Assembly (NCBI GenBank): GCA_008727115.1
Contig: CP044131.1
Coordinates: forward strand, 2,232,001 to 2,296,000
DNA: 64,000 nucleotides
Reading direction: 5' to 3'
Source: Comamonas testosteroni
GTDB lineage: Bacteria > Pseudomonadota > Gammaproteobacteria > Burkholderiales > Burkholderiaceae_C
The notes below the pieces were generated by a model that saw only the letters and a list, made by a program, of their open reading frames with translations, made no database searches and had not been told where the DNA came from. Of this stretch, positions 8,572 through 42,626 are shown one piece after another; positions within the stretch are counted from its first letter, which is position 1, and every line of letters starts with the position of its first letter. The position numbers were made by a program, and so were the translations under genes.

Positions 8572-9738
8572 ATGAACTTTGAACTCAGCCAAGATCAGCA
8601 GGCCTTTGCCGACACGGCCCGAGCATTTGCGCAGGCAGAACTAGCCCCCCATGCTGCGCAGTGGGATCGCGAAGCGCACTTTCCCCGCGAAGCCATTGCC
8701 AAGGCGGGCGAGCTGGGCTTTTGCGGCTTGTATGCACCTGAGAGCGCAGGCGGCCTGGCCCTGCCGCGTCTCGATGCCACGCTGGTGTTCGAAGAGTTGG
8801 CTGCCGTCGATCCATCGACCACCGCCTTTATCACCATCCACAATATGGCGACCTGGATGCTGGGCACCTGGGCCACCGGTGCCGTACGCGAGCAATGGGG
8901 CGAGCAACTGACCAGCGGGCAGAAGCTCGCCAGCTATGCGCTGACCGAGCCCGGTGCAGGCTCGGATGCTGCCTCGCTCAAGACCCGGGCCGAGCTGGCG
9001 GGCAACGAATACATCATCAACGGCAGCAAAGCCTTTATCAGCGGCGCGGGCAGCACCGATGTGCTGGTGCTGATGGCAAGAACCGGAGACGCACAATCGG
9101 GCGCATCCGGCATCAGCGCCTTTGCCGTGCCCGCCAACGCAGAGGGCATCAGCTACGGCAAGAAGGAAGAAAAAATGGGCTGGAACAGCCAGCCCACGCG
9201 CGTCATCAATTTCGACAATGTGCGCATCCCCGCTAACCACCTGCTGGGCCAGGAAGGTGAAGGTTTCAAGATTGCGATGAAGGGCTTGGACGGCGGCCGC
9301 ATCAATATCGCCACCTGCTCCGTCGGCGCGGCGCAAGGTGCGCTGACTCAGGCGCAGCAGTACATGCAGGAGCGCAAACAGTTCGGCAAGCCCATTGCCA
9401 GCTTTCAGGCCCTGCAGTTCAAGCTGGCCGATATGGCCACCGAGCTGGTCGCCGCCCGCCAGATGGTGCGGCTGGCTGCCTCCAAACTGGACGCCGGTGC
9501 GCGCGATGCGTCCACCTACTGCGCCATGGCCAAGCGTTTCGCCACGGATGCAGGCTTTGCCGTCTGCAACGAAGCGCTGCAAATCCACGGAGGCTATGGC
9601 TATCTGAACGACTTCCCGCTGGAGCGCCTGGTGCGCGACGCCCGCGTGCACCAGATTCTGGAAGGCACGAACGAGATCATGCGCGTCATCATCGCGCGGC
9701 GCATGCTGGATGGCGATGCATGTGACGCCATTCGCTGA
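8572..9738 (+). CDS. Acyl-CoA dehydrogenase, probable isobutyryl-CoA dehydrogenase
   Basis: A 388-residue FAD enzyme with the acyl-CoA dehydrogenase signatures YALTEPGAGSDAASL (about residues 122-136) and QIHGGYGYLNDFPLERLVRDAR near the C-terminus. The catalytic Glu falls in LEGTNEIMRVIIARR. An AGGAGATATGAG ribosome-binding site precedes ATG 8572. Its position between mmsA and mmsB points to isobutyryl-CoA to methacrylyl-CoA in valine degradation; short branched-chain acyl-CoA dehydrogenases are very similar, so the exact substrate is inferred from context. Confidence 0.88.
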   Translation: MNFELSQDQQAFADTARAFAQAELAPHAAQWDREAHFPREAIAKAGELGFCGLYAPESAGGLALPRLDATLVFEELAAVDPSTTAFITIHNMATWMLGTWATGAVREQWGEQLTSGQKLASYALTEPGAGSDAASLKTRAELAGNEYIINGSKAFISGAGSTDVLVLMARTGDAQSGASGISAFAVPANAEGISYGKKEEKMGWNSQPTRVINFDNVRIPANHLLGQEGEGFKIAMKGLDGGRINIATCSVGAAQGALTQAQQYMQERKQFGKPIASFQALQFKLADMATELVAARQMVRLAASKLDAGARDASTYCAMAKRFATDAGFAVCNEALQIHGGYGYLNDFPLERLVRDARVHQILEGTNEIMRVIIARRMLDGDACDAIR

Positions 9739-9758
9739 AATTGCCTGAAACAGATCCC

Positions 9759-10268
9759 ATGCCCGCCCGCCCCATCTCCCCCGAAACTCTGCAGCTCATT
9801 GATGCCGTGCGCGAAGCGCTGGCCCAGCATGCGCCTGCCGCGGAAGTGGAGGAAAAGTCCATGTTTGGCTGCCTGGTGTTCATGGTCAACGGCAAGATGT
9901 GCCTGGGTGTGGAGGACGACGAGCTGCTGGTGCGTCTGCCGCCGGACACGCATGACGCCGTAGCCGAAACGCCGGGCCTGCGCCCGCTGTCGCTGCGCGG
10001 TGGCATGCAGGGATATTTTCTGGTCTCGCCCACAGCCTATGCCACACGTGCGGCCTGGAATCACTGGGTGCAGGCGGCGCTGGATTTCAACCCGCAGGCA
10101 AGGGCAACGCCCAAGCGTAAATCGGCCCGCAAGCCAGAAACAGAAGACAAGTCCGCCAAAGACTCTCAAAACAGAAGCACGCAGCGAACGCCAGACAAGG
10201 GCAAAGAACCAAAAACATTGAAAGATCCGCGCCCGTGCAAAGTCCATCCCATCTTTGGCAGCGAGTAG
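9759..10268 (+). CDS. TfoX N-terminal domain protein with basic tail
   Basis: A protein of about 169 residues. Its first ~110 residues match the TfoX N-terminal/YjbR-like fold: a helix followed by EKSMFGCLVFMVNGKMCLGVEDDELLVRLPP, and GMQGYFLVSPTAY. The remaining ~60 residues are Lys/Arg-rich low-complexity sequence. Full TfoX regulates competence, but stand-alone N-domain proteins have no assigned role. I prefer ATG 9759 to the in-frame TTG 9741. It starts 21 bp after the acyl-CoA dehydrogenase stop, so co-transcription is likely. Confidence 0.7.
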   Translation: MPARPISPETLQLIDAVREALAQHAPAAEVEEKSMFGCLVFMVNGKMCLGVEDDELLVRLPPDTHDAVAETPGLRPLSLRGGMQGYFLVSPTAYATRAAWNHWVQAALDFNPQARATPKRKSARKPETEDKSAKDSQNRSTQRTPDKGKEPKTLKDPRPCKVHPIFGSE

Positions 10269-33145: not shown

Positions 33146-33222
33146 AGGCGCGTAGCTCAGCTGGTTAGAGCACCACCTTGACATGGTGGGGGTCGTTGGT
33201 TCGAGTCCAATCGCGCCTACCA
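33146..33222 (+). tRNA. tRNA-Val (anticodon GAC)
   Basis: Full cloverleaf with acceptor AGGCGCG/CGCGCCT, anticodon GAC in CACCTTGACATGGTG, T-arm GGTTCGAGTCC, and encoded CCA at the 3' end. It is the integration target of the island that follows. Confidence 0.95.
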
Positions 33223-33284
33223 AATATCGCAAGCTAAACCAGAGCTTGCAACGAAAGTGCCCGCTAACAAGCGGGCATTTTTTT
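33175..33284. repeat. attL: tRNA-Val 3' half plus terminator
   Basis: From ACCTTGACATGGTGG through the T-arm, CCA, an AAATATCGCAAGC stretch and the GTGCCCGCT/AGCGGGCA terminator, this segment recurs with few changes at 42321-42434. It marks the left junction of a tRNA-integrated element. Confidence 0.85.
33258..33284 (+). terminator. Terminator after tRNA-Val
   Basis: TGCCCGCT (33258-33265) pairs with AGCGGGCA (33270-33277), followed by seven T. A copy is carried at attR (about 42405-42430). Confidence 0.88.
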
Positions 33285-33310
33285 GTACGGAATACGGAAG
33301 AAGTACGGAA
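33285..33310. promoter_or_regulatory. Arm-type repeats, left end of island
   Basis: GTACGGAA (33285-33292), TACGGAAG (33293-33300) and GTACGGAAAA (33303-33312) are three closely spaced direct repeats just inside attL. The same motif occurs at the other end, upstream of the integrase. Such repeats usually bind the integrase N-terminal arm domain. Confidence 0.6.
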
Positions 33311-33530
33311 AACTTCTACAAACAGTCCAGTACAAAGCAGCACTTTTCAGCACACAAAAGTGTTGTCTACATAGAACACCTCTGCCAGTCCTACCGCCCC
33401 TCGTTGCACTCTTGTTTGGCAACAGTCCACCAGACTTGGTCTGCAAAGGCGGTCTTTGTGATCACTACATAGCTGCCATATAGCAATCGTTTTAGCTTTA
33501 GGATGTTTCCGGGCGGCCACTTCTTGGCTC
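33311..33530. other. Island left flank, no gene seen
   Basis: 220 bp between the arm-type repeats and the stop of the McrC-like gene. No open frame with supporting features was found here. Confidence 0.5.
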
Positions 33531-36056
33531 TCACCCAGTTGCTAAAGCGGAAACAGCCAAGAATTCCTTATCGAAGTAGGCACCGCATGAGGGACACATG
33601 ACGTTCGTAATCTGCTCCGCAAGCGTGCGGTGATAGGTCAGATCGGTGCCGTTCTTGAAGAGCGTTGCATCACAGTCGTAGCAGTGGGTTCGAACGGTTT
33701 CCATACCGCAATTTCTGCAATTCTGAGACCAATAATCCCTACCTCTGCGGGTCTGTCGCTGCTTGATGTCGACAGACTCGTGCTTGGTACCACAGCGGAT
33801 ACAGCAACTCATACTGTTCCAGTTGTATTCCTCATCGGGGCTAGGGGGCTGCGGAAACACTGCTTGTAACTCCATGGCGATCAAACGACGCAGGTTCTGT
33901 TGCGCCCCCCCGCCTTGCACCCCCGCCGCGAGTTGGATGCTTCCGGTTCGGTGATTTGTGGGCGCCTCCTGTCCATAGTCACAGTGTTGCCCCCAGGCAA
34001 GCGGAGATGATGGTTCAGAAACAGCATTCGACTCAGGCTGCAAGATGAACACACGGTCCCTTTTTCCTCCGTAGCGTTTCACATCGACCAGCTCAATAAG
34101 TAAGTCGGCAAGTTCGCCCCGTCGCCAGCGTGTGCGGAACTTGGCGTCCATGACGATGGCGCCCACATCGCCAGAATCTGAAGTTTTGAATCTCAAGCGG
34201 AAATCTGGGCGCCTGCCGTTTTCGAGAACTGGCTGGATCTCTAAGGTGGCCGAAATACCAATGTCCTTTCTGTTGAACAGAAGGCTCGCACTATCTGGCC
34301 GCCCGGTCACAGCTCTAATAACCAACTCTTGCCATCCAGGACTTGGCTCAAAGTCGAAATCCTCGATAAGGGTGCCGATGATCTTCACCAGACACCAGCG
34401 TTCATAGACGGCACTAGCATGCAAGATGCTGATCCGATGGAGTTCGTCAATTGACTCACCACCGATGCCCCCGCGCTCTGTAAGTTCGCGTACCCGGGTG
34501 TAGGCTTTGAGAACCGCTGCATAGTCGGGACTCAAGACATAGCGCATGCCCATCGGAAATGTCGACTGTGGCAGAACGCCCAGCGAGTGCCAATGGGCGT
34601 CCTGTTGACGTAATGCGGCCTGAGTGGATGCAAGCTCAGAGGCCGACTTCATTGCCTCTCTGGCTAATCTCTTATAAGTCTTAGATCGTGACGCTGCGGT
34701 GTGCGACTCGCGCTGCATCTCTGCCCGTTCCGTACGAGAAAGTTCGTGCTGCCAGCCGCTTCTTTCGAGGCGCGTCCTAGTGCGCTGTTTGGCTTCAATA
34801 GCTTGGCGGTCTGGGTTAACCGCAAATACACTCGAAAATTCCAAATGACGGTACGACTTCCCATTTGCATTCTTTTTGAGGGCGATGGATGGTCTACCTG
34901 TTAGCGTAAATATGCTGCAGAAATTCTGCGCAGCAACCACGAGCTTGCTCAATGTCTCGGGAAGACGGACAACGTTGTAGCCGATGCCCATCTTGTCGTC
35001 ATATTCGCTGCGTCCTTCAAGCTTTTCATAGAAGAACTCGTTGCCTCTACGTCCATACTTCTTGGTGATCTTGATTTGGTAGTCTTGAAAGGCGTCTCGA
35101 TCTTCGTCGGGGGCGCTGTCTGACCACGCCGCTAGTCGGTCCAACTTCTCGGTTAATTCCGCGATCTGGCGATCGAAAATCTCTGGATTCACTTGGCGAG
35201 TTTCGGTTGTTCCGTAATCCACGCTGCGTTCGTCTTCGAAGCGCGCGAGTTCCGCTAAACGTTCAGCCTGCTGATGTGCCGCTTGATGGACAGTTAATGC
35301 GATGCGATTGCAAACCTGCACCATGTGTCGCAGATAGCGGTTGTCAGCAGTCTCAGCAGACTCTTCGCTCGCGCGCCCGACAAGGCGTGGCCTGTAGGGC
35401 TGCCGGGCATGCTGCCGAAAACTCGCCATACTAGGACGCAAACGGGATCGGTGCGTCTCGGCTGAGACTTCGCGCAGGATTCGTGCCGGCCGGGAACCCA
35501 CTCGGGCCACTGACGAAGCAAACTCCGTCAGTGCTGCTAGCAAATCCCCTCGACAAGAAGCCGTAGTTCTGGAGGACGTTGCTGTGCCCGAACTCAGAAC
35601 TAACCAAATTAGGTCGTTCTTGAAGTCTTGCAGGTATTCTTCAAGCTGTACCAGGCCGAGGCCAGAGGCCAAGTTCTCGATGAGCAAACGATGATCATCA
35701 ATACGCACATCGAAGCGACCCATCGTGCGATGCAACTCACTGAGATGCTTCTGCTGCCGCGCATCCCAGCCATCATCTTGCACCCACCAGGTACCGCCAG
35801 CACCATCGTCCACTGCAAGCATGGGATGCTCTTGCCCTTGCGCATCAACGAAGACTGGCGAGCTCTGGCGCAACTGACCACTGAGCCGCAGCCCGAGCCA
35901 AGGGTGAAAGTCATGGAATATCTGGGTCTCGATCCTCAGCACGCCGTCTGGGCTTAGCTCGATATCAAGCGGATCCGGCGAAACGACAACGCGTCGTGCA
36001 CGCCCGGGCTCCAACCATTCCACGGCAAGGTAGTGAGCCTCGATTTCCGGCTGCAT
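33531..36056 (-). CDS. McrC-like nuclease, DUF2357 type with C-terminal zinc ribbons
   Basis: An 841-residue protein starting at ATG 36056, which overlaps the stop of the McrB-like gene by one base (TGATG). The N-terminal part (VEWLEPGRARRVVVSPDPLD, later HDFHPWLGLRLSG) resembles DUF2357. Around residues 632-660 a PD-(D/E)XK-like core reads GAIVMDAKFRTRWRRGELAD, with Asp and Lys as likely catalytic residues. The last ~95 residues hold Cys pairs near 752/755, 780/783, 792/795 and 821/824, so two zinc ribbons are likely. With the ATPase this looks like a type IV (McrBC-like) restriction system. Target specificity is unknown. Confidence 0.75.
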   Translation of the reverse strand: MQPEIEAHYLAVEWLEPGRARRVVVSPDPLDIELSPDGVLRIETQIFHDFHPWLGLRLSGQLRQSSPVFVDAQGQEHPMLAVDDGAGGTWWVQDDGWDARQQKHLSELHRTMGRFDVRIDDHRLLIENLASGLGLVQLEEYLQDFKNDLIWLVLSSGTATSSRTTASCRGDLLAALTEFASSVARVGSRPARILREVSAETHRSRLRPSMASFRQHARQPYRPRLVGRASEESAETADNRYLRHMVQVCNRIALTVHQAAHQQAERLAELARFEDERSVDYGTTETRQVNPEIFDRQIAELTEKLDRLAAWSDSAPDEDRDAFQDYQIKITKKYGRRGNEFFYEKLEGRSEYDDKMGIGYNVVRLPETLSKLVVAAQNFCSIFTLTGRPSIALKKNANGKSYRHLEFSSVFAVNPDRQAIEAKQRTRTRLERSGWQHELSRTERAEMQRESHTAASRSKTYKRLAREAMKSASELASTQAALRQQDAHWHSLGVLPQSTFPMGMRYVLSPDYAAVLKAYTRVRELTERGGIGGESIDELHRISILHASAVYERWCLVKIIGTLIEDFDFEPSPGWQELVIRAVTGRPDSASLLFNRKDIGISATLEIQPVLENGRRPDFRLRFKTSDSGDVGAIVMDAKFRTRWRRGELADLLIELVDVKRYGGKRDRVFILQPESNAVSEPSSPLAWGQHCDYGQEAPTNHRTGSIQLAAGVQGGGAQQNLRRLIAMELQAVFPQPPSPDEEYNWNSMSCCIRCGTKHESVDIKQRQTRRGRDYWSQNCRNCGMETVRTHCYDCDATLFKNGTDLTYHRTLAEQITNVMCPSCGAYFDKEFLAVSALATG

Positions 36057-38179
36057 CAACGCAACCAGTAGTTGGCAATTCCGTTGTTGCCATCAGCAGC
36101 AGCGATGATCTGGTCCAGCGCATCCACACTGGATTCGGAAACAGTTTGACGATCCATTCCGCCCAACGTGTCTGCCACCTCCGCACGCAAGTCGAGCAAT
36201 ATGTCACGGCGTGACCTTCCCTCAACTGAGGTTCGACCCAGATCCAACATTAGTTTGGGTAGTACCTTATGCAGCACGATGTTGTTAAGGGCGGCCTGAC
36301 GCCCAATGCCTGCAACATGCGCTTGGCGCAGATAGTGGAGCGACTGCCGAATGGCTCTCATCCCGAATTCGACGCCTAGTGGATCCAAATGACGGCGTGC
36401 CAAACCGGCAAGAAGCGTAGCGTCCGGATCGTGCCGGTCGAAAGGAGGATATTCCTCCCTTGTGCCCAGGCCCTCGGCGCCCAATCCCACGGGGAGTTGA
36501 AGATCAACACCAAACGTCTGAATTTCAGCCTCCACCTCATCCCAGTCGATGAGCACGGGATTGCGAAAGCGGAGCACGTGCACGCGGTCAAGCACCTTTG
36601 GCGAAAGGTAGTGAGTAGTCTCATCAATGTTGACAGTGCCAATGATTCGCACGTTTGCAGGAAGATAGAGCGCAGTGGGCGTTCGCGTAACTGCCGCCAG
36701 AGAGCGACGCAACCTTGCATGGTGAACCAGGACAGATTCCGCGTCCTTGAACCCCCCCAGGCGATGCAGCAGCGCATTGGCCTCTTCGTTCTTCAGCATT
36801 TCTTCCAGAGTCGCGGCTTCGGAAAGTCCGACACGAGAACGGACTTCAGCCTCGATAGACAGAAAAACCCCATTTTCCATCACCGCATGACGCTCCTCGT
36901 CAGATGTGTAGAGCGGGATCTGCGGATTGCCTTTGCGGGTCTCTAGCAAACTGAGGAAGTCTGCGAAGTAGTGTTCGACGCGCGCAAGATTCATCTCGTC
37001 CAAGCAGATGAAATGAGGCACCTCCGGCTCGGCTTGCGCGGCCTGCAGAGCTTTCAGAAAGGGGGTGGGCTGGTAGCTGCGCTCAATTGGGTTGTAGTAG
37101 CCGAGCAGATCCTCTGGCCCTGTCCAATTGGGTTTGACTGGAATCACGGTGCAGCGACCACCGATAGACTCTGCAACAGTCCGCACCATGCTCGTCTTAC
37201 CCGCGCCTGAGTCTCCAGCCAGGACGATCACGTCGTGCGTCCTCAGAAGCGCTAGGAAGTCTCGCAACTGTGCCTGGGTGAAAAGCATGCCGGTCCGCCA
37301 AAGACGCGCCTGTACAAAGGGGGCAAGCCGGGAGAAATCCGCACCAAGAAACCCTTGGAAGTCGTGCTTAGGCTGCTCATCATTCACATTGCACGGTGGC
37401 AGGAGCTCCTGCAAGTCGACTTCGTCCAGCAGACCAAGTGCGACTAAGCGTTGCCCTTTTTCATTCAACAGGTCGGAGAGTCGATTCAAGCGACCAGTCA
37501 TCGCACGTATCTCTTTCGTGAAATTTTCTTTGTGCTCGGCCTGCCGAATACCTTCGGCAAGCGCATTGCTGCGCAACTCGAGAATCTCTTTGTCGTATGA
37601 GTTCTTGGTTCGCTCCAACAGAGAAAGTTCTTCAGCATGCCGCGCAAGCGTCTCGGATCGTTGTTTCCCCAAGTCATCGAGTTCTGCAGCCGAGCGCTCG
37701 AGAATATGTATTTGTTGAGCTTGGATAGCATCGTATGCCGCTTCGGAAATGCGCCGCACGGCGGCCCTCCCGGTGACTGTGACGTTCCATGCTTCAGGGA
37801 TGTCGCGTAAGGGCCGAAGGGTCCCCCTTCGCACCGTGCATGCATAGGGGTTCTCCCGTTTTAGCCGTTCATCAACTGGTGAAAGCTCGAGCTCAGCAAC
37901 GGCCCACAGTTGTCGCGACAGATCAAGGTGACGAACGTCCGGAGGAGGCACGAACGCGCTCGCTGCGTTAGGCCCTTGATTTGGATAAAGTAGCCCAACC
38001 CCGGTAACTGGATCCTCTAGGCCATCGAGAAAGTAAAGAGTCTGCCCGGATGCGACTTTTCTCGAGTTGAGTTGCCCGACCACAACAATCGGCGCGATTG
38101 GCGCTATGCCCCACACCTCGCGCAGTTCATTCAAAAGAGCCAAATCATTTGGCAGGACGCCGACGTCGGCATCTCGCAC
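36056..38179 (-). CDS. McrB-like AAA+ ATPase, 5' end separated by an IS element
   Basis: 707 residues from GTG 38179, the first in-frame start inside the IS junction. An N-terminal domain of unknown type is followed by a coiled coil (about 150-250, ERSAAELDDLGKQRSETLARH). The AAA+ core has Walker A GDSGAGKT (about 322-329), the McrB-like block PNWTGPEDLLGYYNPIERSY, Walker B HFICLDEMNLARVEHYFADF (about 389-408) and a sensor region IIGTVNIDETTHYLSPKVLD. The classic McrB GTP motif is not preserved there, so ATP use is possible. The original gene started at GTG 39700 and is interrupted by the ISL3 element. Function may persist if GTG 38179 is used. Confidence 0.78.
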   Translation of the reverse strand: MRDADVGVLPNDLALLNELREVWGIAPIAPIVVVGQLNSRKVASGQTLYFLDGLEDPVTGVGLLYPNQGPNAASAFVPPPDVRHLDLSRQLWAVAELELSPVDERLKRENPYACTVRRGTLRPLRDIPEAWNVTVTGRAAVRRISEAAYDAIQAQQIHILERSAAELDDLGKQRSETLARHAEELSLLERTKNSYDKEILELRSNALAEGIRQAEHKENFTKEIRAMTGRLNRLSDLLNEKGQRLVALGLLDEVDLQELLPPCNVNDEQPKHDFQGFLGADFSRLAPFVQARLWRTGMLFTQAQLRDFLALLRTHDVIVLAGDSGAGKTSMVRTVAESIGGRCTVIPVKPNWTGPEDLLGYYNPIERSYQPTPFLKALQAAQAEPEVPHFICLDEMNLARVEHYFADFLSLLETRKGNPQIPLYTSDEERHAVMENGVFLSIEAEVRSRVGLSEAATLEEMLKNEEANALLHRLGGFKDAESVLVHHARLRRSLAAVTRTPTALYLPANVRIIGTVNIDETTHYLSPKVLDRVHVLRFRNPVLIDWDEVEAEIQTFGVDLQLPVGLGAEGLGTREEYPPFDRHDPDATLLAGLARRHLDPLGVEFGMRAIRQSLHYLRQAHVAGIGRQAALNNIVLHKVLPKLMLDLGRTSVEGRSRRDILLDLRAEVADTLGGMDRQTVSESSVDALDQIIAAADGNNGIANYWLR

Positions 38180-38205
38180 TCTGTTTGGATTAGATGGATT
38201 AGCTC
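38180..38205 (-). pseudogene. Codons of the McrB-like gene between the IS and GTG 38179
   Basis: Upstream of GTG 38179 the frame stays open to the IS boundary, reading ANPSNPNR. It joins in frame to the 5' fragment at 39679-39700 once the IS and one target copy are removed. Confidence 0.75.
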
Positions 38206-39670
38206 GGCTCTATGCCGTTTTGTGTGGAAACGCTTCGCGTCATGTCGGCATGGCTGGCGCGAACGGACTGGCCGGCAGGTGCTTGAGCTTGGACATGCGC
38301 AGGTAGGCGATGGCGATGAAGTTCTGGCTCGTCCTGAAGCCGCGCGCGGCGCGCTTGGCCTGCTGCAGCAGCCCGTTCATCGCCTCGACGAAGGCGTTGC
38401 TGCGGTGATCGACCATGCCGCGCACCACCGCGTCGAACCGCTCCTTGAGCGTGGCGGCCAGCTTCTTGAACGGCTCGAGCCGACAGCGCCGCGCCCAGCT
38501 CAGCCAGGCCCTGAGGTCGGATGCGGCCTGTTCGATGCTGTTGTGCGCTGTGGCCCGTGCGTACACCGCGCGCAGCGCCATCTTCAGCCGCCACGCCCGC
38601 GCGCTCTTGAGCGTCGAGCGCTGCAGCCAGTGCATGGCATCGAGCTGGCGGGCGCTCCAGGTGCTGGGGTTGCGCCGCATGCCCCACAGCAGCTGCCTGA
38701 GCGTCTTGCGGCCGCCAGCGCCCAGCGCGGCTCGCACCGCCTGCGCGTCGGTGGCCATCTCCGCGCGGCGCACCTGGTCCATCGCATCGATGGCCATCGA
38801 GACGACGTGAAAGCGGTCGTAGCTGATCTGCGCCTCGGGCAGCGCCAGCGCCACGCCCTTGGCGTAGGCTGCGCTCATGTCCATGCACACGTGCCGCACC
38901 TGGGCGGGATCGCCGCCATGGGCCTTCAGATCCTCGGCGAACTCCACCACCGTGCGGTGCTCGCGCCCCTCGGTGGCGAACAGCAGCCGCTTGCGATCCA
39001 GGTCGTGCACGACGGTGATGTAGTGCTGCCCGCGCCGCAGGCTGGTCTCGTCGATGCCCACCGTGCGCACGCCGGCGAAGTCTTCCAGCGCACGCGCCTG
39101 CGCGACGTAGAACTCGATGCGCCGCCACAGCCGCTTGTCCTTGCAGCGCAGCAACTCGGCGGCCTGGCGCACCGGCAGGTCCAGGCACAAGGTCAGCGCC
39201 AGCGCTTCGAACGCCGCGGTGAAGCCCGAGCCCGGACGCGCCCAGGGCACGGCCACCTGCGTGGTCTTGCCGCAGGCACCGCAGGCCACGCGCGGCACGT
39301 CGCAGTGCAGCCAGGCCTCGAACTGGAAGAAGTCCAGGTGCCGCCAGGATCGGCGCAGCCGGTCGTGCACCGGTTGCGTGGCCGCACCGCATGCCGGGCA
39401 GGCGAGCCTGCTGGTGTGGCAGCCGATCTCGAAGTCGATACGCCGCTTGGCGGTGTCGAGCCTGACGTCATCGACGACCCACGGCGGCTGCAAGCCCAGC
39501 GCGCTGGTGAACAGAGCTTCTACGGCAATGCCCATGGACTCATCCTCCTGATCAAACACGCCTCGTGGACATGTGCACAGGCCGGCCAGCGGCCTGCACA
39601 CATGCCCACCGGGCTCAACAACCAGGGGAGCATTGTGAGTGTTGTGTTCCACACGAAATGACGAAGGACC
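38206..39670 (-). mobile_element. ISL3-family insertion sequence
   Basis: 1465 bp with imperfect ~24-bp terminal inverted repeats. The left end reads GGCTCTATGCCGTTTTGTGT and the right end, on the minus strand, GGTCCTTCGTCATTTCGTGT. It is flanked by a perfect 8-bp target duplication ATTAGCTC (38198-38205 and 39671-39678), the size expected for ISL3 transposition. The intact duplication implies insertion without later rearrangement. Confidence 0.92.
38240..39535 (-). CDS. ISL3-family transposase
   Basis: A 431-residue transposase. Its N-terminal zinc finger has CPACGAATQPVHD and VACGACGKTTQ. The DDE catalytic core begins near VRTVGIDETSLRRGQHYITV, then HVCMDMSAAYAKGVALALP, and the C-terminal part holds NAFVEAMNGLLQQAKRAARG. 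I chose ATG 39535 because AGGAGG lies at good spacing. An in-frame continuation runs upstream across the IS end into the McrB-like start codon (GTG 39700), which would give a fusion if used. Confidence 0.92.
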   Translation of the reverse strand: MGIAVEALFTSALGLQPPWVVDDVRLDTAKRRIDFEIGCHTSRLACPACGAATQPVHDRLRRSWRHLDFFQFEAWLHCDVPRVACGACGKTTQVAVPWARPGSGFTAAFEALALTLCLDLPVRQAAELLRCKDKRLWRRIEFYVAQARALEDFAGVRTVGIDETSLRRGQHYITVVHDLDRKRLLFATEGREHRTVVEFAEDLKAHGGDPAQVRHVCMDMSAAYAKGVALALPEAQISYDRFHVVSMAIDAMDQVRRAEMATDAQAVRAALGAGGRKTLRQLLWGMRRNPSTWSARQLDAMHWLQRSTLKSARAWRLKMALRAVYARATAHNSIEQAASDLRAWLSWARRCRLEPFKKLAATLKERFDAVVRGMVDHRSNAFVEAMNGLLQQAKRAARGFRTSQNFIAIAYLRMSKLKHLPASPFAPAMPT

Positions 39671-39678
39671 ATTAGCTC

Positions 39679-39700
39679 CCTGCTGTTTTATCAAACTCAC
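39679..39700 (-). pseudogene. 5' fragment of the McrB-like gene
   Basis: On the minus strand GTG 39700 opens the frame MSLIKQQG and continues across the target duplication as AN. A TAG stop lies three codons upstream of GTG, so 39700 is the only start in that frame. The IS therefore sits directly after codon 10. Confidence 0.7.
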
Positions 39701-40399
39701 GTGTGCCTACATATCCAAGTAACCGCTGTCAAAAATCGGCGTATTCGCTCAAAGCTTCAATTGATACTTCTAGCCACCGACTTGGCGATCGACAGCCGCT
39801 CGAATCCGTGGGCTGTTTCCCTTGCTAAGGGTCTGAGCTTTGGATATTACCCCACAAGTGATTACGGTTTGACTGACCTACTGTTTGGTGTTGGCGGGTT
39901 CGACCTTTTTAGGTTCAGCGTAGGTACTCAAGGTCACCGAAAACATCTGCACGTATAACGACTTCATCGTTCTCGCAAATCAGCTTCTTCAAAGTACAGC
40001 GTTGTGATGCTTGTGTGCCGCGCAGTGTATTACGCTCCATGCCAGCCCCTGTAGGTCCGCAATCTACGACGTTAGCAATCTCCAGTATCGCGAGGAGGCA
40101 GAGGTATCTCGTCGACGTGGGCTAGGAAGGTGTTGACAACCAGTCGATGCTAAGCGGCAGCTTTTGGGCGTTGGGCTGCTGCCGGTCTCGTAGCCGCTGG
40201 CGGCTGTGTGAAAACTCCGTCGCGTGCAAGGCAATTAGGTAATCGACCTTTCAGATCGATCCAGGATCGACGATCACGATGTTGGGAATGGTTTTGCTAC
40301 TCTCGAAAACATGACCTTTTCGCGTTTTCACACAGCCTCGCTGCTTTGCAGACGCACAGAAACCAAAAATCATCAGGAATTTCCTAACTAATCCTCGGC
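39701..40399. other. Island segment between two IS elements, no confident gene
   Basis: About 700 bp. A 41-residue minus-strand frame (39915-40040, MERNTLRGTQASQRC) could be a small gene upstream of the McrB-like gene but has no recognised family. I looked for the missing integrase catalytic domain on the minus strand next to the IS30 end and did not find it. A MITE-like element lies at 40202-40337. Confidence 0.4.
40202..40337. mobile_element. 136-bp MITE-like element
   Basis: GGCTGTGTGAAAAC (40202-40215) and its exact reverse complement GTTTTCACACAGCC (40324-40337) bracket 108 bp with no open frame. The size and perfect 14-bp ends fit a miniature inverted-repeat element or an IS remnant. 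I did not see a clear target duplication. Confidence 0.55.
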
Positions 40400-41515
40400 G
40401 GATTCAAATGTGAAGTGCAACACCTGCAACCGTTAAGGTCAGCAGATGTCAGCAAGTCGTTCGTCCTATCGCCAACTTCAACCAGAAGACAGAGTCACCA
40501 TAGCCAGTTTGCTGCTGCAGCGTCATAGCGTACGCAGCATTGCGCGTTTGCTAGGGCGCAGTGCCAGCACCGTCAGCCGTGAGATTGCTCGCAACTCAGT
40601 ATCCAGCGATGGATATGCCAGCAGGCAAGCGCAACAGCAGTGGCTTTACAGAAGACGCAGCACAAGATCTGATCCCAAGCTTCATTCACAAGGGATCTTG
40701 TGGTTCTTGGTATTGCATTTCTTGCGTTTGCGTTGGTCACCAGAGCAAATTGCGCTGACACTTGCACGCCTGTACCCCAAAGGCCATGAGCTACGCGTGT
40801 CGCACGAAACCATCTACAACTGCATCTATGCCCAGCCCGTGGGTGAGTTGCGCAAGGAATTGATTGCCACTTTGCGCCATGCTCACAACAAACGGCTGCC
40901 CCGTAGCAAAGGACAGGATCGTCGTGGACAGATCCCAGACATGCTCAGCATCCACGTACGTCCGCCTGAAGTTGAGGATCGGCAGTTCCCAGGGCATTGG
41001 GAAGGTGACCTCATCAAGGGTGCTGGCAATGCAAGTGCCGTAGGCACCTTGGTCGAGCGCACCAGCCGACTGCTCATGCTGGTCAAGTTGCCTGCGTTCA
41101 AACCAGCCAGTGCAGCCAATGTCATGCAAGCCTTTACAGATAAGCTGCTGGGCATTGCGCAGCCCATGCGCCAAAGCATGACGTACGACCAGGGCAAGGA
41201 GATGGCGCTACACAAGCAATTGACCGCCAACACGGGCGTGGCGGTGTACTTCTGTGACCCACACAGCCCGTGGCAGCGTGGCTCCAACGAGAACATGAAT
41301 GGCTTGGTGCGCCAGTACCTGCCCAAAGGCATGGATCTGAGCATCTACAGCCAAGAGCAACTCGATGCGATTGCTGATGAAATCAACAACCGCCCTCGCA
41401 AGGGCCTTGGGGTACGATCACCGCTGTCGGTTTATCGAGAGCTACTGATCAACTCTCCCCAGCACTCCACCCTCATCCATTGAATTCAAGGGTGTTGCAC
41501 TTCACATTTGAATCC
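40400..41515 (+). mobile_element. IS30-family insertion sequence
   Basis: Long, nearly perfect terminal inverted repeats: the left end reads GGATTCAAATGTGAAGTGCA and continues ACACC, and the right end is its reverse complement. Flanking GC/GC may be a 2-bp target duplication. It interrupts the island integrase at its right end. Confidence 0.85.
40446..41483 (+). CDS. IS30-family transposase
   Basis: 345 residues. The N-terminal helix-turn-helix (SVRSIARLLGRSASTVSREIARN) is followed by the IS30 DDE domain: PGHWEGDLIKGAGNASAVGTLVER for the first Asp, MTYDQGKEMALHKQL for the second, and FCDPHSPWQRGSNENMNGLVRQYLPKG with the catalytic Glu, ending INNRPRKGLG. The length is normal, so the element looks active. 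Confidence 0.94.
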   Translation: MSASRSSYRQLQPEDRVTIASLLLQRHSVRSIARLLGRSASTVSREIARNSVSSDGYASRQAQQQWLYRRRSTRSDPKLHSQGILWFLVLHFLRLRWSPEQIALTLARLYPKGHELRVSHETIYNCIYAQPVGELRKELIATLRHAHNKRLPRSKGQDRRGQIPDMLSIHVRPPEVEDRQFPGHWEGDLIKGAGNASAVGTLVERTSRLLMLVKLPAFKPASAANVMQAFTDKLLGIAQPMRQSMTYDQGKEMALHKQLTANTGVAVYFCDPHSPWQRGSNENMNGLVRQYLPKGMDLSIYSQEQLDAIADEINNRPRKGLGVRSPLSVYRELLINSPQHSTLIH

Positions 41516-42175
41516 GCCAAGGTATAGCTGGCGCTTGGTATCCGCATTTTTGAGCGGTTTGAGCTTATTCTTCCACGCAAAATCGCTGCTGATATACGCT
41601 TGACCCAGTGCGTAATTTAAGGCTGCCCTGAATGGAGTGATGTCACGATTGAGGGTGCTATCACTGCGCAACTGCCCCCGATTAGCTCCGGCTGTGCTGG
41701 GCCTCTTTCGAACTCTGTCCAGCCATTTCTCAATCACTTGCGGGGTCAACTTTGAAAGCTCGAGACTCGCAAAAGATGGATCGTCCAGCACGTAGTTCTT
41801 GAAGCGAGTAGATGCATCATTCGCTGCTTTGACTCCCTTTGTACTACGCACGTGTTTGGCGTAGTCGCCGCAAGCATCTGAGACTGTATAAATGCCTGCT
41901 TGTCCACCTCTGCCTAGGTGTTGGAACCACTTTTCGGCCTCAATTTTTGCTGCGGTGAATCTTTGGTTCTTGGGAAGCTCTCGAAATTCGCCAAGTGACT
42001 TCATTGGCTTCTTACTCTGGATGGGGTCCCAGTACCTAGCAATCCAAGTACCTTCAGAACTGTTCGTCATCCTGCGAAAGCCCAAAGAGTTGCCAGTCCC
42101 CAGTCGCATCCAGTGAGGCTCCCTGCGCAACTCCAAGTTTTCTCGGCCAGAAACCTTTGAAAGATCAACATCCAT
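41516..42175 (-). pseudogene. Truncated tyrosine-recombinase integrase
   Basis: From ATG 42175, with AAGGAGG at ideal spacing, the frame encodes an arm/N-terminal domain (NSLGFRRMTNSSEGTWIARYWD) and the SAM-like core-binding domain (YTVSDACGDYAKHVRS, PQVIEKWLDRVRKRPSTAGA, FRAALNYALGQAYI), ending KNADTKRQLYL. The IS30 element then begins. The catalytic domain with the R-HxxR-Y residues is not present on the other side of the IS, so the gene is dead. It is the integrase of the tRNA-Val island. Confidence 0.85.
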
Positions 42176-42196
42176 TCGAACCTCCTTACGCAGATA

Positions 42197-42293
42197 GTAC
42201 GGAAAAAGTACGGAAAACAATCCAGCACTTGTTGATACTATCAAGTACGCATGGTGGGGCGTCAAGAATGAAAAATTAGAAAATATTCCGTAC
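42197..42293. promoter_or_regulatory. Arm-type repeats, right end of island
   Basis: GTACGGAAAA at 42197-42206 and 42208-42217, plus an inverted copy TTCCGTAC at 42286-42293, match the repeats at the left end (33285-33312). Position between integrase start and attR fits integrase arm sites. Confidence 0.6.
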
Positions 42294-42320: not shown

Positions 42321-42434
42321 ACCTTGACATGGTGGGGGGTCGTTGGTTCAAGTCCAATAGCGCCTACCAAATATCGCAAGCAAAACCAGAGCTTGCAGCA
42401 AAAGTGCCCGCTAACAAGCGGGCACTTTTGTTTT
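42321..42434. repeat. attR: partial tRNA-Val copy plus terminator
   Basis: ACCTTGACATGGTGG through CGCCTACCA and the GTGCCCGCT/AGCGGGCAC hairpin repeat attL with a few substitutions (for example TTCAAGTCC for TTCGAGTCC). The 5' half of the tRNA is missing, so it cannot be a functional tRNA. Confidence 0.85.
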
Positions 42435-42626
42435 CAGGGCACGAAAAAGGCATACACAGCACTTCTGCTCATTGGCACCCAATCCTGTATCCAGCCACAG
42501 ACTCAGGCATGAGTCCTACGCCTCAATATGCATTGGATGGGCAGCCTCCACGAACAAGACAAATTTTGGTGACTTTGTCCACTCGATTCAGCAGCAAAGC
42601 CTTGCTCTTATGATCGAGACTCCGCC

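Follow-up and report, generated by a model that had tools for sequence, protein, structure and literature searches.

A probable Type I-A CoCoNuT, interrupted by an insertion sequence, in a tRNA-Val island of Comamonas testosteroni

What kind of system is encoded by the two adjacent genes, one for an McrB-like ATPase and one for its presumed nuclease partner, that lie beside a tRNA-Val gene of Comamonas testosteroni? The window analysed here is a stretch of 64,000 nucleotides (2232001-2296000 of a single-contig genome of 4,136,480 bases). Judged by the published description, the locus is probably a Type I-A CoCoNuT (cnuB-cnuC). The pair would form a two-gene type IV restriction-like defence system that is the cargo of a tRNA-Val integrative island, and an ISL3-family element, which appears to have transposed recently, interrupts cnuB near its start. 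With this assignment, an unexplained gene pair is placed in a named class and the reading of its GTP motif is corrected. The island and its genes are laid out as follows:

33146 to 33222, plus strand: tRNA-Val (GAC), the likely integration site (tRNA prediction)
33175 to 33289, plus strand: att-like repeat at the tRNA end, about 115 bp, near-identical to the far copy and comprising the 3' part of the tRNA and its flank
33531 to 36059, minus strand: cnuC-like gene (McrC homologue), from the ORF list, PADLOC PDC-M26B, a weak DUF2357 match and invariant residues
36056 to 38179, minus strand: remainder of a cnuB-like gene (McrB homologue) downstream of the IS, from the ORF list, PADLOC PDC-M26A and AAA_5
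40388 to 41527, plus strand: IS30-family element with a transposase at 40446-41483 and 37-bp inverted repeats; outer limits approximate
41486 to 42265, minus strand: probable tyrosine integrase, N-terminal fragment cut by IS30 (weak Phage_int_SAM match, below cut-off)
42321 to 42436, plus strand: att-like repeat at the far end, a near-copy of 33175-33289

The att-like repeats bound an island of 9.1 kb and, together with the tRNA gene, they substantiate the tRNA-Val island that the initial annotation had proposed. The other large island ORFs are transposases and the integrase fragment, and none of the five large island ORFs scanned against Pfam and NCBIfam was a methyltransferase, a response regulator or a pilus protein. 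In the ORF list, nothing of 70 aa or longer is read on the minus strand between 39701 and 40445 that could supply the catalytic half of the integrase. Two smaller features were seen in the island: a 21-bp repeat lies inside both ends (33293-33313 and 42187-42218) and possibly represents integrase arm-binding sites, and inverted copies of a short GGCTGTGTGAAAAC motif, picked out by eye, bound about 140 bp at 40180-40350, perhaps a decayed IS or a small non-autonomous element.

The ORF list gives a cnuB remnant of 707 aa from GTG 38179, while CnuC has 842 aa if it starts at TTG 36059 and 841 aa if it starts at ATG 36056. The two genes overlap by TGATG, so that the translational-coupling overlap noted earlier is confirmed in the sequence. 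Both proteins match the PADLOC candidate system PDC-M26 (A and B) over nearly their whole length, with 867 bits for CnuB (residues 11-705 of 707) and 1248 bits for CnuC (residues 2-833 of 842); a pair encoded on an E. coli plasmid scores 1107 and 1428 bits. The PADLOC entry carries neither a description nor a mechanism, and the name PDC-M26 was absent from the literature searched. Two peptide patterns, run against 84,980 genomes (one for each species), picked up 25 cnuC loci, a lower bound, in Comamonas, Pseudomonas, Aromatoleum, a Moraxellaceae bin and Alphaproteobacteria. The gene cnuB was found upstream of cnuC in all 20 loci with upstream DNA, one of which (L018) holds it only in part, and a TGATG or TAATG stop/start overlap was present in 12 of these 20; the loci whose contig ends before cnuB (L017, L028, L030, L031 and L032) were left out of this count. 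At the Aromatoleum anaerobium locus (L025), a 393-codon frame at the start of cnuC (8673-9917), a transposase by eye, parts cnuB from cnuC. Among 20 neighbouring ORFs compared with Pfam, the one recurrent type was the tyrosine integrase (4 of 20). A comparison of the flanks with PADLOC (69 of 159 flanking ORFs, E up to 1e-10) revealed no recurrent family among those listed that could be a defence partner; 65 families were matched, and each of the 25 listed was matched by one member only, so that the scanned flanks show no fixed partner.

In the genome studied here, the start of cnuB is itself disrupted:

38198 to 38205, no strand: 8-bp target-site duplication, copy 1
38206 to 39670, minus strand: ISL3-family insertion sequence of 1465 bp, interrupting cnuB near its start
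39671 to 39678, no strand: 8-bp target-site duplication, copy 2
39671 to 39700, minus strand: first cnuB codons, stranded beyond the IS and matching the start of the intact relative P0002

P0002 (723 aa, 88% identical) has the same first residues as the frame that starts at 39700, and cnuB was therefore interrupted after about 10 codons; position 39700, at which the interval first annotated had ended, is the start of the pre-insertion cnuB frame. Genome-wide, there are 15 identical full 1465-bp copies of the ISL3-family element, including the one in cnuB, and one 70-bp piece. The 15 identical copies are a sign of recent expansion, and since they are identical, the insertion in cnuB is probably recent. 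Because the IS parts the native cnuB start from the rest of the gene, activity has probably been lost or much reduced, and from its sequence the cnuB copy of this strain is probably weak or dead. The database protein P0005 (567 aa) starts later than GTG 38179 and is presumably this strain's gene call.

It is moderately likely that the pair is by now a relic in this strain, the island being immobile and the system dead, a view that is compatible with the Type I-A reading. This would fit the splitting of cnuB near its start and an integrase that is cut by IS30 and has no ORF for its catalytic half. It would also fit the finding that the stretch 38150-39950 contains no sigma-70-like promoter by consensus, a weak test since only 0.1 such promoters are expected by chance and weak promoters are missed. 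Against it, the frame from GTG 38179 is uninterrupted over 707 of about 723 codons, transposase and cnuB share one orientation, so that read-through is possible, and the identity of the IS copies makes a recent insertion probable.

The assignment to Type I-A rests on features of both proteins. In CnuB, an N-terminal domain is followed by a coiled-coil-like stretch and an AAA+ NTPase domain with an NxD motif. AAA_5 matched at 1.7e-9, above the family cut-off, and E. coli McrB chains were matched by its AAA+ domain (1.2e-5) in a profile search of the PDB. Residues 141-250 are heptad-like, as judged by eye in the alignment, and DUF7201, a coiled-coil family in Pfam, matched below its cut-off (8.4e-4). 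For the N-terminal part, we compared 17 loci (the E. coli plasmid pair, the window itself and 15 from the set of 25): an S1/CSD-like family was matched by one of the 17 regions, at 0.0047, the window's own region being without a match, and none of the regions matched an OB-fold chain in the PDB profile search. Some Pseudomonas-type members carry an FGFL...FVPPSEL pattern, which by eye we take to resemble cold-shock domains, a likeness that is suggestive only. Neither YTH nor EVE gave a Pfam match on CnuB, and the reader families DUF3578, EVE and SRA were absent from the Pfam and NCBIfam matches at E up to 1, a screen that a strongly diverged reader could escape. The McrB-like AAA+ ORF of the initial annotation is thereby confirmed as described, its N-terminal coiled coil is made likely by the stretch that looks heptad-like by eye and by the single below-cut-off DUF7201 match, and its statement that no known modified-base reader is visible stands within these searches.

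The initial annotation was mistaken in one respect, namely in holding that the GTP motif is not preserved. The motif is kept in a shortened form, NxD, and the sequence between it and Walker B is long:

36623 to 36631, minus strand: NxD motif N517-I518-D519 of CnuB, with N and D present throughout the 55 aligned proteins
36665 to 36892, minus strand: additional segment separating Walker B from NxD, defined by length only, limits approximate and estimated by eye

In the window protein the motif reads N517-I518-D519-E520. An alignment of this protein with 54 near-full-length relatives (51-88% identical), taken from the 120 listed of 1631 found, showed N517 and D519 to be invariant, with E as the next residue in 43 sequences and D in 12. 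The distance from Walker B to NxD is 123 residues in all 55 proteins and in all 17 loci, the E. coli plasmid protein among them, whereas 61 residues separate the two in another Comamonas testosteroni CnuB, itself CoCoNuT-like.

CnuC is ordered as an N-terminal region, a weakly recognizable DUF2357 part, a PD-(D/E)xK nuclease and a C-terminal zinc-type tail:

33825 to 34457, minus strand: nuclease region of cnuC, residues 535-745, with E553, D619, D638 and K640
33534 to 33827, minus strand: C-terminal tail, a pair of putative zinc ribbons made up of four CxxC motifs, from the alignment

The DUF2357-type nuclease ORF is real; its match to DUF2357 is weak (16.7 bits with a Pfam cut-off of 23.3). 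For the residue comparison, the window protein was aligned with 53 of the 59 relatives listed, leaving out its own copy (P0121) and the shorter P0148, P0151, P0152, P0153 and P0179. Loss of the nuclease active-site residues, which the initial annotation had named as grounds for refuting its proposal, was not what this alignment showed: E553, D619, D638 and K640 are invariant in all 54 sequences (38-88% identical) and in all 17 loci, including the E. coli protein, so that the residues expected of an active enzyme are retained in the CnuC nuclease. At E up to 1, PDDEXK_7 was detected in all but one of the 17 nuclease regions (best 6.9e-8); in the region from the window the match, at 0.025, falls short of the cut-off. 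The same 54 proteins and 17 loci also share eight cysteines without exception (753, 756, 781, 784, 793, 796, 822 and 825), which form the four CxxC motifs of the tail. Judging from this alignment, the tail is strongly constrained, in keeping with the zinc-ribbon tail proposed initially, with the ribbons themselves still putative. A PDB search with the whole-CnuC profile found no relevant solved structure, and profile searches with the N-terminal, nuclease and zinc parts found no meaningful PDB match. Since the NxD motif, the nuclease tetrad and the eight cysteines are conserved across Alpha-, Beta- and Gammaproteobacteria, they make up a residue-level list that is usable for a bench test.

These features can be compared with the CoCoNuT description by Bell et al. 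2024 (PMC11090510; reference proteins ROR86958.1 and APL73566.1). There, Type I-A systems likewise consist of cnuB and cnuC only and have the NxD motif, a coiled-coil-like stretch before the GTPase, and a PD-(D/E)xK nuclease with a zinc-type tail in CnuC. The extra length between Walker B and NxD is shared too, although its helical nature is the paper's feature. The same text assigns to Type I-A a CSD-like OB-fold at the CnuB N terminus without a YTH domain, and to its CnuC an Ig-like N-terminal domain and a CSD/coiled-coil insert in DUF2357; the CnuC sequence of the window leaves room for both. Two differences were seen, in that the window CnuC has four CxxC motifs, one of which is CPxC, where that description implies three CPxC for Type I-A, and in that the window cnuB is interrupted by an IS. 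The tentative kinship with published coiled-coil McrBC variants suggested in the initial annotation is thus borne out, as the NxD motif, the spacing, the nuclease residues and the zinc-type tail all fit. The kind is already named, and is also present as PADLOC PDC-M26A/B, and the window pair is not a new kind. Since the family has already been described, novelty is lower, and the description of the pair is unaffected. According to the initial annotation, matches that placed both proteins in a well-described restriction family of identical domain composition would refute its proposal. Here the outcome is divided: the family is described, but no experiment on any Type I-A member was found in the parts of the literature covered by the search, and according to PMC11090510 no NxD McrB has been characterised.

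It is improbable that the pair belongs elsewhere in the NxD branch, as a Type I-C system, a CoCoPALM or a methyltransferase-associated NxD system. In PMC11090510, NxD, usually followed by E or D, is a mark of the whole McrB-like branch, and coiled coils occur in some of its members. The helical insert between Walker B and NxD is said there to separate Type I-A from all other CoCoNuTs, and from these only, not from every NxD relative, which leaves some ground for such a placement. On the other hand, a spacing of 123 residues fits Type I-A, and the five island ORFs scanned included none of the three accessory protein types named above. Type I-B is described in the same source as having a separate coiled-coil gene, cnuA, and no coiled coil on CnuB, and the fusion of the coiled-coil-like stretch to CnuB in the window argues against that reading. 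E. coli K-12 McrBC likewise pairs an AAA+ partner with a DUF2357-nuclease partner in the order B then C, and it is not known to have a coiled coil, the insert or zinc ribbons. It is a highly improbable model for the pair, and a diverged canonical McrBC that cuts modified-cytosine DNA was rejected on the NxD motif. In its favour, E. coli McrB chains are matched by the AAA+ domain, but K-12 McrBC has NxxD and a methylcytosine reader domain (PMC11090510), whereas the window pair has NxD, the long spacing and no known base-reader domain among the Pfam or NCBIfam matches.

If the pair is a Type I-A CoCoNuT, a mechanism can be proposed to which, taken as a whole, we give an even chance. CnuB would form an AAA+ NTPase ring, and its N-terminal domain, possibly a CSD-like OB-fold, would sense with the coiled coil a nucleic-acid or translation-linked cue of infection. 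CnuC would dock via its DUF2357 part and stimulate hydrolysis; the engaged nucleic acid would be cut by the PD-(D/E)xK nuclease of CnuC with help from the zinc-type tail. The hexamer, the docking through DUF2357, the use of NTP and the coupling to the nuclease are features that we infer from McrBC as presented in PMC11090510, in which RNA-related targets are predicted for CoCoNuTs. It is conceivable, but unlikely, that Type I-A reads RNA and cuts DNA, the OB-fold and zinc ribbons holding a nascent or foreign transcript while the nuclease cuts the template; if this were true, a Type I-A CoCoNuT would be a transcript-directed DNA restriction system. Elsewhere in the family, of three further papers (PMC12458937, PMC12707154 and PMC12554148), one names Druantia I and II a fourth CoCoNuT group, another reports a Type I-B CoCoNuT in Staphylococcus aureus, and the remaining one does no more than cite Bell et al.

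The gene cnuC is patchily distributed, as one would expect of a mobile defence gene. It was present in 4 of 100 genomes including the window's own, all of one genus, one of these (G034) covering model residues 516-840 only, and in a class-wide sample of 369 genomes, with at most two candidates per genome scored, it was seen only in the window's own genome. By tblastn, 166 of 72,556 plasmid records matched, 126 of them from Klebsiella, all with less than 60% identity, and in a DNA search 9 of 5426 E. coli genomes matched over a 126-base stretch only. Viral contigs contained 17 matches to the patterns, but at none of them is a relative encoded, and phage records gave two partial AAA+ matches only. 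A tyrosine integrase is the next ORF after cnuC in L008, L017, L020, L024 and L026, and at 5 of the 25 loci (L009, L012, L017, L024 and L026) the end of cnuC has a tRNA or tmRNA gene no more than about 2 kb away. A tRNA-Gly was also predicted inside cnuC of two Pseudomonas loci (L022 and L027). Inspection by eye led us to discard it, since both loci have the same sequence there and this sequence does not resemble the tRNA-Gly of L009.

The window's own genome (C1) contains a second, larger CoCoNuT-like operon at about 2197000-2217000 (L038, L033), some 50 kb from the window pair. It encodes a CARF-PDDEXK protein (PADLOC, 970 bits), a protein kinase, an SF1 helicase of 1118 aa, which by its position we take to be UPF1-like, a 655-aa protein in the CnuE position, a coiled-coil-like McrB and a DUF2357 fragment, and it lies near a type III restriction enzyme. 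By its layout, this operon may be a type II or III-A CoCoNuT. It is cut by an IS as well, with identical inverted 1034-bp copies, one following the McrB frame and the other the DUF2357 frame. The presence of IS in two CoCoNuT-type operons of one genome and in cnuC of Aromatoleum anaerobium may mean that these systems are costly or easily lost; the plain alternative for the interruptions is the general IS wealth of this genome. A second CoCoNuT-like gene was also observed in Comamonas testosteroni SWCO2 (L008, 17461-20034), where a coiled-coil-like CnuB with an NHDE motif and a spacing of 61 lies about 5 kb from the strain's Type I-A-like pair.
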